Below are positions 4,016-23,226 of a stretch of 64,000 bases of DNA, in pieces. This DNA comes from Bartonella sp. MM73XJBT.G (lineage in GTDB: Bacteria; Pseudomonadota; Alphaproteobacteria; Rhizobiales; Rhizobiaceae). Position 1 is the first letter of the stretch. Every line of letters begins with the position of its first letter. The stretch spans positions 62,001-126,000 of the forward strand of contig NZ_JAQISW010000001.1 in NCBI RefSeq assembly GCF_028618435.1, read 5' to 3'. The notes beneath the pieces are model-generated. The model was not told the origin of the DNA, did no database searches, and saw nothing but the letters and a program-made list of their open reading frames with translations. A program made the position numbers and the translations under genes.

Positions 4016-4284
4016 AAGCTGTTGATTCAGCAGTAACAGAAAAGTCACAGGCTTTATGAAATAAAAAGTGCCATAAAACACAAGCTTACCAGCAACGAAT
4101 GAGAAAGATATCTCAACTTTTTATCAAATACTTTGCAAAACGACAAAGCAATTTTTTTAATTATTCGCTTTTTTAAAGGTGAATTTTCAAGAAAAGAAAG
4201 ATTTTTTTTAAAGGACTTGAAAAGTTAATTTTTGTAAAAATCCTTCATTGCAAATGTAAAAGATAACTGTTATTGCTAAATGAT

Positions 4285-4303
4285 AATGCAAATCATTCGC
4301 AAT
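4285..4303. promoter_or_regulatory. Mur/Fur-type operator dyad upstream of sitA
   Basis: The 19 bases AATGCAAATCATTCGCAAT form an imperfect inverted repeat (15 of 19 positions match their own reverse complement). The dyad lies 18 bases before the chosen sitA start at 4322. Its TGCAAAT / GCGAAT half-sites resemble the sites bound by the manganese-responsive Fur homologue Mur in front of rhizobial sit operons. This suggests repression of sitABCD when manganese (or iron) is plentiful. The assignment to Mur rather than another Fur-family protein is inference. Confidence 0.6.
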
Positions 4304-4321
4304 AAAGAAAAGAGAAAATTA

Positions 4322-5230
4322 ATGAATATAAAAAAAATTTCTACTCTCATTCTGGTAAGTTTTATTTTTCTTACTCCCAATTTAGCGGTATGTGCTGGTA
4401 AATTTAAAGCTGTTACCACATTCACTATTATTGCCGATATGGCGCGAAATGTAGCAGGTGATGTAGCTGATGTTGAATCAATCACAAAACCAGGTGCTGA
4501 AATTCATGAATATCAACCCACCCCTCGTGATCTCATGCGTGCGCAAGGTGCAAATCTTATCCTATGGAATGGGCTAGAGTTAGAACTTTGGTTTGAAAAG
4601 TTTTTTCAAAATATCAACGATGTTCCAAGTGTGGTCGTTTCAAAAGGTGTTGTACCCATTAAAATTGGTGAAGGTCCCTTTAGTGGTAAGCCCAATCCTC
4701 ATGCTTGGATGTCACCCACTTCTGCTCTGATCTACGTTGATAATATTCGCGATGCTTTTGTAAAGTATGATCCTGAGAATGCTGCTATTTACAAAGAAAA
4801 TGCTGAAATTTATAAACAAAAAATTCGTGCGACCATTGATCCCATTAGAGCTGAATTGGCAGAAGTTCCTCAAGATAAGCGTTGGCTTGTCACCAGTGAG
4901 GGGGCATTTAGCTATTTAGCACGTGATTTTGATCTAAAAGAGCTTTATTTATGGCCCATTAACGCTGATCAGCAAGGAACACCACAGCAGGTTAAGCATG
5001 TTATTGATATGGTCCGTAAATATAATATCCATGCTGTTTTTTCTGAAAGCACAATTTCTCCAGCACCTGCTAAGCAAGTCGCAAGAGAAACAGGGGCTAA
5101 ATACGGTGGTGTTCTCTATGTTGATTCTCTAAGTGAGAAAAATGGTGAAGTCCCCACTTATATTGATTTATTACGTGTTACGAGTGGGCGTATTAGCAAT
5201 GCCTTATTAGAGGGAGTAAAAAAACAATGA
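4322..5230 (+). CDS. sitA: Manganese/iron ABC transporter, periplasmic metal-binding protein
   Basis: A cluster A-I (ZnuA/SitA/YfeA-type) solute-binding protein that captures Mn2+ and/or Fe2+ in the periplasm for the SitBCD importer. ATG 4322 is preferred over the in-frame ATG 4280 because it gives a clean signal peptide ([20 protein letters not shown], cleaved near VCAG) and leaves the operator at 4285-4303 outside the coding region. Candidate metal ligands appear in the expected order: His in EIHEYQP, His in PNPHAWMSP, Glu in TSEGAFS and Asp in LYVDSLS. Length is 302 residues, normal for the family. It overlaps sitB by 4 bases (ATGA), so the two are translationally coupled. Confidence 0.93.
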
Positions 5231-6057
5231 CGGAATGTGGAATATTTGCCCAAGGGGTAACGGTAACTTATCGTAATGGACATACAGCTTTACGCGAAGT
5301 GAATTTTGAAAGTCCAAAGGGATCTATTACAGCATTGGTTGGCGTTAATGGATCAGGTAAATCAACATTATTTAAAGCAATTATGGGGTTTGTAAGTCCT
5401 TCAAAGGGGAAAATTCGCATGTTTGATTTGCCCGTTGATGTCGCTTTGAAAAAAAATCTTATTGCTTATGTTCCTCAAAGTGAAGATGTGGATTGGAATT
5501 TTCCTGTTCTGGTTGAAGATGTTGTCTTGATGGGGCGGTATGGTCATATGAATTTCTTTCGCTATGCCAGCGCACGAGATTATGAAGCTGTTCGTGTTGC
5601 CTTGGAGCGCGTAGATATGTTGCCTTTTGCCAAGCGCCAGATTGGAGAACTTTCTGGTGGACAGAAAAAGCGTGTTTTTCTAGCGCGCGCTTTAGCACAA
5701 AAAGCAAAAGCTATTTTATTAGATGAACCGTTTACAGGGGTTGATGTTACAACAGAAGATAAAATCGTTGCTTTGTTACAAGATCTTCGTAAAGAAGGAG
5801 CAGTAATCTTAGTTTCTACCCATAATTTAGGCTCTGTTCCGGAATTTTGTGATCATACGGTTTTAATAAAAGGGACTGTTTTAGCTTCTGGGTTAACAGA
5901 AAAAATCTTCACAAAGGAAAATCTGGAGAAAACTTTTGGAGGATCTTTGCACCACCATATTTTTGATCTTCAAAACACTAAAAAAAATAATGTTTTCATG
6001 GGAAGAAAACAATCCACAGTTTGTGAAAATATTGAAAAAGTGGAGCACGTTGCATGA
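5227..6057 (+). CDS. sitB: Manganese/iron ABC transporter, ATP-binding protein
   Basis: The cytoplasmic ATPase that powers the Sit importer. Walker A is GVNGSGKST (residues 39-47), the ABC signature is LSGGQKKR (near 140), Walker B is [12 protein letters not shown] (near 162), and the switch histidine sits in STHN (near 196). Length is 276 residues; the last ~40 residues, with an HHH run and [10 protein letters not shown], extend past the ATPase core as in SitB/YfeB proteins. It overlaps sitA upstream and sitC downstream by 4 bases each, so it is clearly part of one operon under the upstream dyad. Confidence 0.94.
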
Positions 6058-6920
6058 TTTCTTTTTTGCTTGAGCCACTGAGCTATCAATATATGATAAA
6101 TGCAATGTGGGTTTCTGGATTAGTGGGGTGTGTTTGTGCCTTCCTTTCGGCTTTTTTGATGTTAAAAGGTTGGTCATTAATTGGTGATGCGCTATCCCAT
6201 TCGATTGTTCCTGGTGTCGCAGGAGCTTACCTTTTAGGGTTACCATTTTCACTTGGCGCTTTTTTTTCTGGTGGTCTTGCTGCAGCAGCTATGCTGTTTT
6301 TTAATCAGCGGACAAAACTGAAAGAAGATACCATTATTGGTCTCATTTTTTCTTCCTTTTTTGCTTTTGGATTATTTCTCAAATCATTAAAACCAATGGC
6401 TGTTAATATTGATACGATTGTTTTAGGAAATATTTTAGCAGTCAGTTCATCAGATATTATACAATTGGCTTTTATTGGTTTTTTCTCTTTATTTCTATTG
6501 CTTTTAAAATGGAAAGATCTCCTTGTTTCTTTATTTGATGAGACGCATGCACGTGCCATTGGACTGAACGTAAAGTTTTTAAAGATTCTCTTTTTTACAC
6601 TGCTTGCTGCTTGTACGGTTGCTGCTATGCAAACAGTTGGAGCATTTTTGGTCATTTGCCTTGTGGTAACACCTGGAGCAACAGCTTATCTTCTCAGTGA
6701 TCGTTTTACGAATATCTTGATTATTGCAGTTATAATTGGAACATTCACAAGCGTATTGGGTGTTTATGTGAGCTATTTTTTGAATGCACAAACGGGTGGT
6801 GTTGTTGTGCTTTTCCAAGCATTTTTGTTTATGTTAGCTTTTATTTTTGCTCCTAAACACGGGTATATTGCTGCACGTTTACGGATCAATGCAGCCAAAA
6901 AAGGGATGATATTGTCATGA
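6054..6920 (+). CDS. sitC: Manganese/iron ABC transporter, permease (ABC-3 family)
   Basis: An integral inner-membrane permease of the ABC-3 (ZnuB/SitC) family, 288 residues with about eight hydrophobic segments. The family-typical [20 protein letters not shown] stretch near residue 45 is present, as is the [19 protein letters not shown] region near 195-215. It should form the channel together with SitD. Start ATG 6054 overlaps the sitB stop. Two permease genes side by side are typical of Sit/Yfe Mn-Fe systems and unlike Znu zinc systems, which use one. Confidence 0.92.
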
Positions 6921-7822
6921 TTGATCAATTACTACTTCCTTTTCAATTTTCTTTTATGTTGAAAGGCATGCTTATTGTTATGATCCTTTCTATTCCAATG
7001 GCGATGCTTTCTTGTTTTCTTATTTTGAAAGGATGGGCACTATTAGGAGATGCCATTTCCCATGCCGTTTTTCCTGGTGTTGTTGTTGGTTATATGACAA
7101 CGCCGTGGGTGATAGCATTTTTGACTTCTTTACCATTTGCTTGGCTTCAGCATATGCGTCCAGAGAATATTACAATGACTTTGATTACGTGCGGTGCTTT
7201 TGTTGCGGGTATGGTTTGTGCTCTTACAACAGGTTTTTTAGGAAGCAATAGTCGTATCAAACAGGATACAGTGATGGGTGTTGTTTTTTCATCGATGTTT
7301 GGTTTAGGACTTGTTTTGGCAACATCTATCTATAGTAGCCTAGATTTAAATCATATTCTATTTGGTAACCTGTTGGGCGTTAATTGGCTTGATATTACAC
7401 AGACAGCAATCATTTCTACCATTGTTACTTTTATTTTAGGAGCAAAATGGCGCGATTTTATGCTGTATATTTTTGATTCAGTACAAGGTCGTGCGATGGG
7501 ATTGCGAATATCATTACTTCACTATACTCTCTTAACAATGATTTCTCTCACGATTGTCGCGGCTTTGAAAGCTGTTGGAATTGTGCTTGTTATTTCTTTA
7601 CTCATAGCACCAGGAGCAATTGCTTATCTTGTCACAAAACGGTTTTCTTTTATGTTAATGATTGCGATACTTGTTGCAGCTCTTTCTGGTTTTTTAGGGA
7701 TTTATCTCAGCTTATTTATCGGCTCTGATTCTGCTTCCACAATTGTTTTGATCTTAACGTTGGTTTTTATTGCTATTTTTATGATGATTTTCGTTCGTCG
7801 AAACACAGTTCAAGAAACTTGA
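6917..7822 (+). CDS. sitD: Manganese/iron ABC transporter, second permease (ABC-3 family)
   Basis: Second ABC-3 permease of the operon, 301 residues with about nine hydrophobic segments. It is a paralogue of SitC: both carry a G-W-(S/A)-L-(I/L)-GDA-(I/L)-SHA/S motif near residue 45 and a late TPGA/APGA-I/T-AYL motif. It overlaps sitC by 4 bases. A short hairpin-rich stretch ending in a strong intrinsic terminator follows the stop; it may end the operon mRNA and also carry a small RNA. Confidence 0.92.
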   Translation: MIDQLLLPFQFSFMLKGMLIVMILSIPMAMLSCFLILKGWALLGDAISHAVFPGVVVGYMTTPWVIAFLTSLPFAWLQHMRPENITMTLITCGAFVAGMVCALTTGFLGSNSRIKQDTVMGVVFSSMFGLGLVLATSIYSSLDLNHILFGNLLGVNWLDITQTAIISTIVTFILGAKWRDFMLYIFDSVQGRAMGLRISLLHYTLLTMISLTIVAALKAVGIVLVISLLIAPGAIAYLVTKRFSFMLMIAILVAALSGFLGIYLSLFIGSDSASTIVLILTLVFIAIFMMIFVRRNTVQET

Positions 7823-7894
7823 CTGTGATAAAATTTATGCATATCAGCCATGCATTTTTATACATTGTTTCTCATGTTTATTTTAATTAGAGGT

Positions 7895-8018
7895 TGAATC
7901 GCTAGGTTATTTTTCCTCCTAATGTCTAGCAAATGAATGCAGTACGTTTTCTCCTCCCCCCAACACTGCATTCTTAATTAAGAGGCTGCATTGATTTATT
8001 CTGCAGCCTTTTTATTTT
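7895..8018 (+). ncRNA. Probable trans-acting small RNA, cuckoo/alpha-r14-like (two CCUCC loops)
   Basis: Three hairpins follow each other. H1: GCTAG (7901-7905) pairs with CTAGC (7926-7930), with CCTCCT in its loop (7915-7920). H2: GAATGCAGT (7935-7943) pairs with ACTGCATTC (7965-7973), with CTCCTCCCCCC in its loop (7951-7961). H3 is an intrinsic terminator. A run of hairpins exposing anti-Shine-Dalgarno CCUCC loops and ending in a terminator, about 120 nt in all, is the layout described for the alpha-r14/'cuckoo' small RNAs of Rhizobiales, which pair with ribosome-binding sites. Transcription could start from TTGACT (7819-7824) with TATCAG (7842-7847) at 17-base spacing, from a nearer start, or by cleavage of sitABCD mRNA. 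Family membership is inferred from structure only. Confidence 0.6.
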
Positions 8019-8020
8019 TT
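7983..8020 (+). terminator. Strong intrinsic terminator behind sitD / small RNA
   Basis: AGGCTGCA (7983-7990) and TGCAGCCT (8002-8009) form a perfect 8-bp stem with an 11-base loop, followed by TTTTATTTTTT. It ends the sitABCD transcript and/or the small RNA just upstream. Confidence 0.85.
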
Positions 8021-8246
8021 TACTTTTCTAAAATGTCTTCTTATTTCTTGAAACCATTTAAAATAATTATCATATTGCAAAGCGATTTAGTATCCTGAAG
8101 GAACTTAATGACAGTAAAGACACTTACACATAGAAATGGTAGAGAGGGGAAATAGTAAAGAGGGATTATTCACTCAAAGATATAAACAATGAAACAAATA
8201 CAATTTTTTGTGTAAAGTTTTACGTGGAGGAAAGTAATACGAGAGA

Positions 8247-8633
8247 ATGAAGAAATATTTCAAGATATCACACCCTTTACGTCTCTGCTATTATATAGCA
8301 GGTTGGATAATGGTTATATTAGGCATTATCGGTGTGGTATTACCTATTATGCCAACGGTACCTTTTTTGTTGGTTGCCTCATGGTGTTTTACGCGTTCTT
8401 CTCCACATTTTCATCAGTGGTTGAATAATCATCGTATTTTTGGTCCCCCTCTTAAACGATGGGAAGAAAGAAGAGCTATTTCTCCATTTGTTAAAATTTT
8501 TGCCGTGATGAGTATGACAGGAGGGGGATTATCCTTTTTCGTAATGGTACACCCTCCTTTATGGATTTCTTTACTCGTTGCCGTTATATTATTGTTGATT
8601 GCTATTTATATTGTAACACGTCCATCTTCATAA
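8247..8633 (+). CDS. YbaN/DUF454 family inner-membrane protein
   Basis: A 128-residue protein of the DUF454 (YbaN) family, whose biochemical role is not known. It shows the family pattern: an N-terminal hydrophobic hairpin (GWIMVILGIIGVVLPIMPT, about residues 19-37), then PFLLVASWCFTRSSP, the conserved HQWLNNHRIFGPPLKRWEE segment, and two more membrane segments near 84-125. The start ATG 8247 has a GGAGG-like site in ACGTGGAGGAAAG, about 15 bases upstream, so spacing is long. It stands alone between the Sit operon terminator and pncB on the other strand. Confidence 0.85.
   Translation: MKKYFKISHPLRLCYYIAGWIMVILGIIGVVLPIMPTVPFLLVASWCFTRSSPHFHQWLNNHRIFGPPLKRWEERRAISPFVKIFAVMSMTGGGLSFFVMVHPPLWISLLVAVILLLIAIYIVTRPSS

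Positions 8634-21232: not shown

Positions 21233-23226
<1,994 letters not shown>

Follow-up and report, generated by a model that had tools for sequence, protein, structure and literature searches.

What is the structured stretch that follows the manganese importer genes in a Bartonella genome, and under whose control does it stand? The window, meaning the whole stretch of 64,000 nucleotides of Bartonella sp. MM73XJBT.G that was analysed, carries at 4280..7822 (+) a manganese/iron ABC importer operon, the upstream syntenic context outside the RNA gene; we take its open reading frames (ORFs), by recognition, to be sitABCD. Only 78 nt lie between the stop codon of sitD and the first of three hairpins. 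Judged by sequence, the RNA formed by these hairpins is a reduced member of the ar14/cuckoo RNAs, which carry anti-Shine-Dalgarno (aSD) loops, and not a new kind; it is probably controlled by the LysR-type regulator LsrB (VtlR). New here are the family assignment, the regulator circuit, the genus-wide loss of seed loops and a correction of earlier inferences on metal and Hfq.

The original prediction described three hairpins, two with CCUCC loops and the last a terminator, and this holds. Read directly in the window, CCTCCT occupies 7915-7920 and CTCCTCCCCCC 7951-7961, exactly as predicted. Folded by itself, 7899-8013 forms the three hairpins, leaves both CCUCC stretches unpaired and reaches a minimum free energy (MFE) of -32.2 kcal/mol, compared with a shuffled mean of -16.9 (sd 3.2; z -4.83); none of 200 shuffles equals it. 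Hairpin 1 (7901..7930, +) presents CCUCCU in its loop (7915..7920, +). Hairpin 2 (7935..7973, +) has a loop with CUCCUCCCCCC, in which the aSD motif (7951..7961, +) continues into a C tract. The third hairpin (7980..8012, +) is an intrinsic terminator whose loop lacks the motif of deep-branching Bartonella. Together with the ar14 match and the conservation described below, the fold defines a small RNA gene of about 114 nt at 7900..8013 (+), the start of which would lie some 7 nt after the -10 element, uncertain by a few nucleotides. The folding check suggested for 7850-8025 came out divided: this wider stretch is also more stable than its shuffles (z -2.99), but other pairing displaces hairpin 1 from the MFE structure. 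Hairpin 1 is thus the weakest of the three and depends on where the transcript starts. A simple terminator scan of 7600-8300 listed no terminator and missed the RNA's own as well, probably since the loop left by its unbroken stem exceeds the length that such a scan accepts.

At gathering thresholds, Rfam reports only a tRNA in the whole window. With relaxed thresholds the ar14 model (RF02344) matches 7895-8015 from end to end (model positions 1-123 of 123; 34.8 bits, E 6.8e-5), so the proposed covariance-model search found the family, though below its gathering score of 58.8 bits. The own genome has two matches, at 34.8 and 24 bits. Among 61 relatives 40 match at E <=1 and nine exceed the gathering score, eight of them Bartonella; of the 37 Bartonella genomes searched, 26 match and 11 do not. 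The eight that pass score 72.7-87 bits, and in all eight the RNA lies behind sitD. Across 150 genomes of the order, 46 match at E <=0.001 and 21 exceed the gathering score. Specificity is low when the cut-off is loose: of 14 control genomes, 9 match the model at E <=10, 1 at E <=1 and none at E <=0.001, the latter two counts having been made with stricter filters.

Membership can be summarised as (i) three hairpins, the last a terminator, are present; (ii) the aSD motif of the CCUCCUCCC type, expected in all three loops, is found in loops 1 and 2 only; (iii) the place behind sitD and the promoter box are shared with accepted ar14 members; (iv) the RNA does not lie directly behind a DUF1127 gene, the place of cuckoo/CcsR RNAs (CIN1 locus). 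Synteny and promoter tie the window copy to copies that pass the threshold and so show its descent from ar14; its low score would follow from loop reduction and A+T-rich stems. The Rfam threshold passes over most Bartonella members, as only 8 of 37 genomes reach it.

A search with a sitD profile gave at least 80 loci, at least 49 of them from Bartonella (L044-L091 and L122; two come from one assembly and have identical RNA). The prediction of a Bartonella aSD RNA of the ar14/cuckoo type is borne out here, since every one of the 49 named Bartonella loci among the matches listed has the RNA behind sitD. The strict pattern of the upstream box is present in 43 of these 49 and degenerate in the remaining six, the count of 49 of 49 coming from a box pattern widened after the six misses had been seen. 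The terminator pattern is found in 48 of the 49; B. phoceensis has one stem base changed and still folds. Over 40 rows, namely the window and 39 loci of the non-deep lineage to which it belongs (the window lineage), mean pairwise identity is 82% for the RNA, 81% for the final 150 nt of sitD and 49% for the DNA 30-180 nt beyond the RNA.

The helices are paired in 99.2% of cells in these 40 rows and in 99.1% of cells in 48 distinct genus-wide rows. Covariation among the 40 rows is modest: 3 of 27 pairs are doubly changed, a count equalled by 2 of 500 shuffles. Genus-wide, in an alignment that had been fitted to the model, 6 of 27 pairs are changed on both sides, with 27 doubly changed cells where shuffles give 4.1; the number of further pair types there does not exceed that in shuffles, 191 of 500 of which reach it. 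These helix counts use alignments A3 and A5 because in the MAFFT alignment A2 the 3' arm of hairpin 1 is one column out of register between the lineages; alignment A4, which mixes in chance matches, was left out. A covariance model (R1) was built from the 40 sequences, the window included, so that its matches to those 40 are by construction. It finds 12 outside matches at E <=1e-6, namely nine loci of deep-branching Bartonella, L020, L021 and a second copy in B. bacilliformis. This second copy stands in tandem (L076 4680-4855) with its own degenerate box. No match at E <=1 was obtained with R1 in 5 of 31 non-Bartonella sitD loci; of 10 other aSD-RNA loci it picks up three at weak E values (0.013-0.054), and it misses both L002 and L161.

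The loops have fared differently in the two lineages. All nine deep rows (B. apis, B. apihabitans, B. choladocola, B. tamiae and relatives) carry the motif in all three loops, whereas CTCC in the terminator loop, present in 9 of 9 deep rows, occurs in 0 of 40 non-deep rows. Within the 40 window-lineage rows, CCTCC is intact in loop 1 of all but one (39 of 40); for loop 2 the figures are 39 of 40 with CTCC, 12 of 40 with CCTCC and 28 of 40 with six or more consecutive C. In B. vinsonii berkhoffii loop 1 reads CATCC and the hairpin-2 stem is altered; B. queenslandensis AUST/NH15 has a loop 2 without CTCC. In this alignment of the sitD downstream region, put forward as a check on stems and loops, the stems and loop 1 are kept and CCTCC in loop 2 mostly is not. 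The locus illustrates how a three-seed RNA loses seeds while its promoter is retained.

Upstream of the RNA lies a putative LsrB/VtlR-like palindromic box, ATGCATATCAGCCATGCAT, of the T-N11-A type (7837..7855, +). A -35 element TTGTTT follows (7865..7870, +), its TTGT invariant in 51 rows and always 9 nt past the 19-nt box (A2), and 17 nt past it comes a candidate -10 TAGAGG (7888..7893, +), with an invariant TA (A2) and a weak match to consensus. A sigma-70 scan listed no promoter at the RNA start and did not pick up this -10. Box and -35 are 86% identical between rows; the stretch from there to the RNA is 64% identical. The two sites of the own genome served to derive a pattern of the box, 10 free bases and ATTGT, which with at most one mismatch occurs at 91 sites in 56 of 61 Bartonella genomes; its reverse has no match in the 61. 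Sorted by sequence, 55 sites (54 genomes) are of the type found before this RNA and 36 (36 genomes) of the type found before an AbcR-like RNA, with no third type. At one mismatch the pattern has no match in genomes G009, G022, G036, G195 and G201, and G020 and G187 have the AbcR-type site only. Seven other places in the own genome that fit the box with two mismatches gave no meaningful RNA-family match. At ar14 loci of other genera, the 200 nt upstream contain a box of this sort in 4 of 28 cases, with 0.07 expected. A single genus supplies three of these four, the strongest ar14 match (L128) lacks such a box, and some of the loci had been seen before the pattern was picked.

LsrB is a redox-responsive regulator. 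The own genome has one LysR-type gene that we could find; it follows an ORF that we take by recognition to be thioredoxin-reductase-like and matches PDB 9HH1 over its whole length (E 4e-134). That entry is deposited as A. tumefaciens LsrB, and lsrB and trxB are described as an operon across Rhizobiales (PMC11975290). In the accessible text of PMC10746234, LsrB is the indispensable activator of NfeR1, the ar14 founder, in S. meliloti. The Bartonella genome thus encodes an LsrB orthologue and has an LsrB-like box upstream of the RNA, with a spacing unlike that given in the same source.

Beside lsrB itself is an AbcR-like (ar15) RNA (L037 1340-1456, -), which matches ar15 at 28.1 bits against an Rfam threshold of 40 and has the second-type box about 45 nt upstream; box and spacing are common to both RNAs. 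Of nine further AbcR-type loci scanned, seven have a weak ar15 match, all under the Rfam threshold. We take atu1667 of A. tumefaciens and its Brucella orthologues to be small DUF1127 proteins. The only DUF1127 match of the own genome is at C1:282311-282421, and a two-mismatch box lies on the opposite strand about 73 nt before its likely ATG. VtlR binds and activates atu1667, which is orthologous to VtlR-activated Brucella genes, and the VtlR binding consensus is drawn from the abcR1 and atu1667 promoters (PMC7486931, accessible text). With one LysR regulator and two sibling aSD-type RNAs in small genomes, Bartonella offers a compact test bed. A different layout is seen in three honeybee-type Bartonella loci (L161, L162 and L163), where a further ar14-like three-hairpin RNA stands directly behind a DUF1127-like ORF (ORFs were listed at L161), which is the ccaF1-CcsR arrangement.

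We consider it likely that the locus is a free-standing RNA gene descended from ar14/cuckoo, with its own LsrB-activated promoter and with aSD loops that block ribosome entry on target mRNAs. LsrB, the sole LysR-type regulator found, would bind the palindromic box at 7837-7855 and activate the RNA's own sigma-70-type promoter. The resulting RNA of about 114 nt would show CCUCC in the loops of hairpins 1 and 2, and these would pair with the Shine-Dalgarno stretch of target mRNAs in Bartonella and keep ribosomes out; the third hairpin would now serve as terminator only. Silencing of target mRNAs by the aSD loops has been described for NfeR1 in S. meliloti (PMC10746234, accessible text).

The nearness of sitD invites the view that RNase E cuts the RNA out of the 3' UTR of the sit mRNA, in the manner of CcsR, and that the level of the RNA follows manganese regulation of sit. 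We regard this as unlikely. The 78-nt distance would suit it, as would the failure to find a terminator between sitD and the RNA, albeit by a scan that missed a real one too, and CcsR is reported to be cut from the ccaF1 transcript by RNase E (PMC10253847, accessible text). Yet the RNA is preceded by its own conserved box and -35, and all nine deep loci keep the box with the RNA at 0.9-1.2 kb behind sitD. In two of these, the deep loci L080 and L086, for which ORFs were listed, an ORF of 265-274 aa that is presumably glycosyltransferase-like stands between sitD and the RNA. This ORF (L080 4423-5247, L086 4492-5289) is absent from the short gap of the window lineage. The suggestion that the RNA is processed from the manganese operon or co-regulated with it accordingly gives way to a genus-wide promoter of the RNA's own. 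Read-through from sitD is possible, because the scan found no terminator in between, yet missed the one at the RNA's end.

Another view dispenses with a regulator altogether: the palindrome at 7837-7855 with its T run would be the sit terminator and the later hairpins ordinary stable 3' structures. By itself the palindrome does fold, at -4.1 kcal/mol in the window and at -7.9 kcal/mol in B. clarridgeiae, and TTTTT comes next, but 22 and 19 of 200 shuffles, respectively, reach these energies, the deep lineages have no T run after the box, and the AbcR-type box folds poorly (-1.6 kcal/mol) and has none either. As the TTGT spacing is also retained at both types of site, loop 1 is so constant, ar14 matches the RNA and a transcript is reported for a probable orthologue, this view seems very improbable to us. 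The absence of a fold in the AbcR-type box, and of a T run in the deep rows, favours the activator-site reading; since a weak hairpin does precede a T run in the window lineage, sit transcripts might also stop at the box there, and a double role as activator site and weak terminator is possible. It could be argued instead that the RNA is decaying in the window lineage and retains little regulatory action, the terminator-loop motif being gone and loop 2 mostly poly-C, with the changes in B. vinsonii berkhoffii and B. queenslandensis as further signs. Loop 1, stems and box are nevertheless as conserved as coding sequence and B. bacilliformis carries a tandem extra copy, so that decay appears doubtful.

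For a free-standing, LsrB-activated gene, the place behind the importer would be an inherited position with no functional tie to manganese. The claim that the RNA ties metal status to translation lacks support, as the promoter points to LsrB and pairing with the sit genes does not exceed that with shuffled starts. A manganese loop acting on the sit genes was rejected: over 48-49 Bartonella loci none of sitA-D beats shuffled starts, with real/shuffled duplex medians of -5.4/-6.9, -9.9/-10.7, -8.3/-10.0 and -5.8/-9.1 for sitA, sitB, sitC and sitD. Within the window alone, sitD comes second and sitB third among 38 ORF starts by duplex energy, a score that ignores accessibility and uses mechanically set ORF starts. 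The DUF454 gene behind the RNA pairs slightly better than shuffled (-11.1/-9.1; 39 loci). Support from a single motif was dropped, the genome having 72 CCTCCTCC sites, so that one motif is not rare. Among the 38 window ORFs, the strongest duplex with loop 2 belongs to 21233-21880 (-), which has an upstream GGGGGGA and a TTG start that was set mechanically. Pairing through Hfq, also part of the original prediction, sits poorly with the description of NfeR1 as Hfq-independent in the accessible text of PMC10746234; the genome does encode Hfq.

A transcript of this kind is already on record. BbsR14 of B. bacilliformis has two stem-loops with nearly identical TTCCTCCTAA, and its RNA-seq level is higher at pH 8 than at pH 6 (PMC7717549, accessible text). 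At the locus of B. bacilliformis Ver097 (L076) there are exactly two TTCCTCCTAA loops, 35 nt apart. The motif occurs six times in the Ver097 genome and so does its reversed control; the argument is therefore carried by the pair, the sole one so close, and not by the motif. The L076 RNA is most likely BbsR14 and a direct orthologue of the window RNA, an identity that rests on a motif match in a strain other than the published one. No family assignment for BbsR14 was found in the accessible text of PMC7717549; so far an RNA-seq transcript, it gains a probable family, regulator and promoter. A 2011 survey contains CCUCCUCCC multi-hairpin models, SmelA075 and SmelA099, and names Bartonellaceae for a group of seven models, model unspecified; four of the seven are placed elsewhere, which leaves SmelA075, SmelA099 or SmelB053 by exclusion (PMC3927594, accessible text). 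A Bartonella member may thus have been counted already in that survey. Beyond these two papers, in literature outside most subscription journals, nothing was found that joins Bartonella with cuckoo RNA, ar14, NfeR1, LsrB or r14. The review PMC7143759, as far as its accessible text goes, treats Bartonella and such RNAs separately, and PMC5596092, which turned up in the same search, is a Mesorhizobium study in the part accessible.

A second conserved RNA lies outside the window (G000:C66:48431-48556; L002 1501-1626). Its single C-rich aSD loop contains CCTCCTCC and then an extended run of C; it has a strong terminator, and no LsrB box was seen by eye. DNA like L002 occurs in 48 of 61 Bartonella genomes, and the 13 without it include deep-branching ones. 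The length of the C tract in the seed loops of the window RNA and L002 varies even between close relatives. A speculative thought, to which we give little credence, is that Bartonella shrank a multi-loop aSD network to a minimal LsrB circuit made up of a single LysR regulator, a pair of aSD-type RNAs whose promoters are laid out identically, and a single DUF1127 gene, and that the window-lineage seed loops of this RNA and L002 are now C tracts whose slippage could retune or switch targets in the manner of a translational contingency locus.

Set beside known systems, the window RNA shares with ar14/NfeR1 of Sinorhizobium meliloti three hairpins, aSD loops, a terminator as the last hairpin and an LsrB-type box upstream. 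It differs in scoring below the family threshold, in having two aSD loops instead of three (the CCUCCUCCC-type motif is unpaired in all three NfeR1 loops), in the shorter CCUCCU of loop 1 and the poly-C of loop 2, and in box spacing, since its box is TGCA-N10-GCAT centred near -54 and the published NfeR1 site TGCA-N6-GCAT at -72 to -57 (PMC10746234, accessible text). S. meliloti has six NfeR1 copies (PMC7143759, accessible text), compared with two ar14 matches in the window genome. BbsR14 likewise has two stem-loops with TTCCTCCTAA, as at the L076 locus, but its loop 2 reads UUCCUCCUAA where the window has CUCCUCCCCCC (PMC7717549, accessible text). The cuckoo RNAs CcsR1-4 of Rhodobacter sphaeroides, which accompany the DUF1127 protein CcaF1, are also of the aSD type (PMC10253847, accessible text); the window RNA has its own promoter and no DUF1127 gene ahead of it. 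AbcR1 and AbcR2 (ar15, RF02345) are the LsrB/VtlR-controlled aSD-type RNAs of relatives, and their Bartonella homologue shares box and spacing with the window RNA. Its architecture and Rfam family are different, however, which makes it a sibling and not the same gene.
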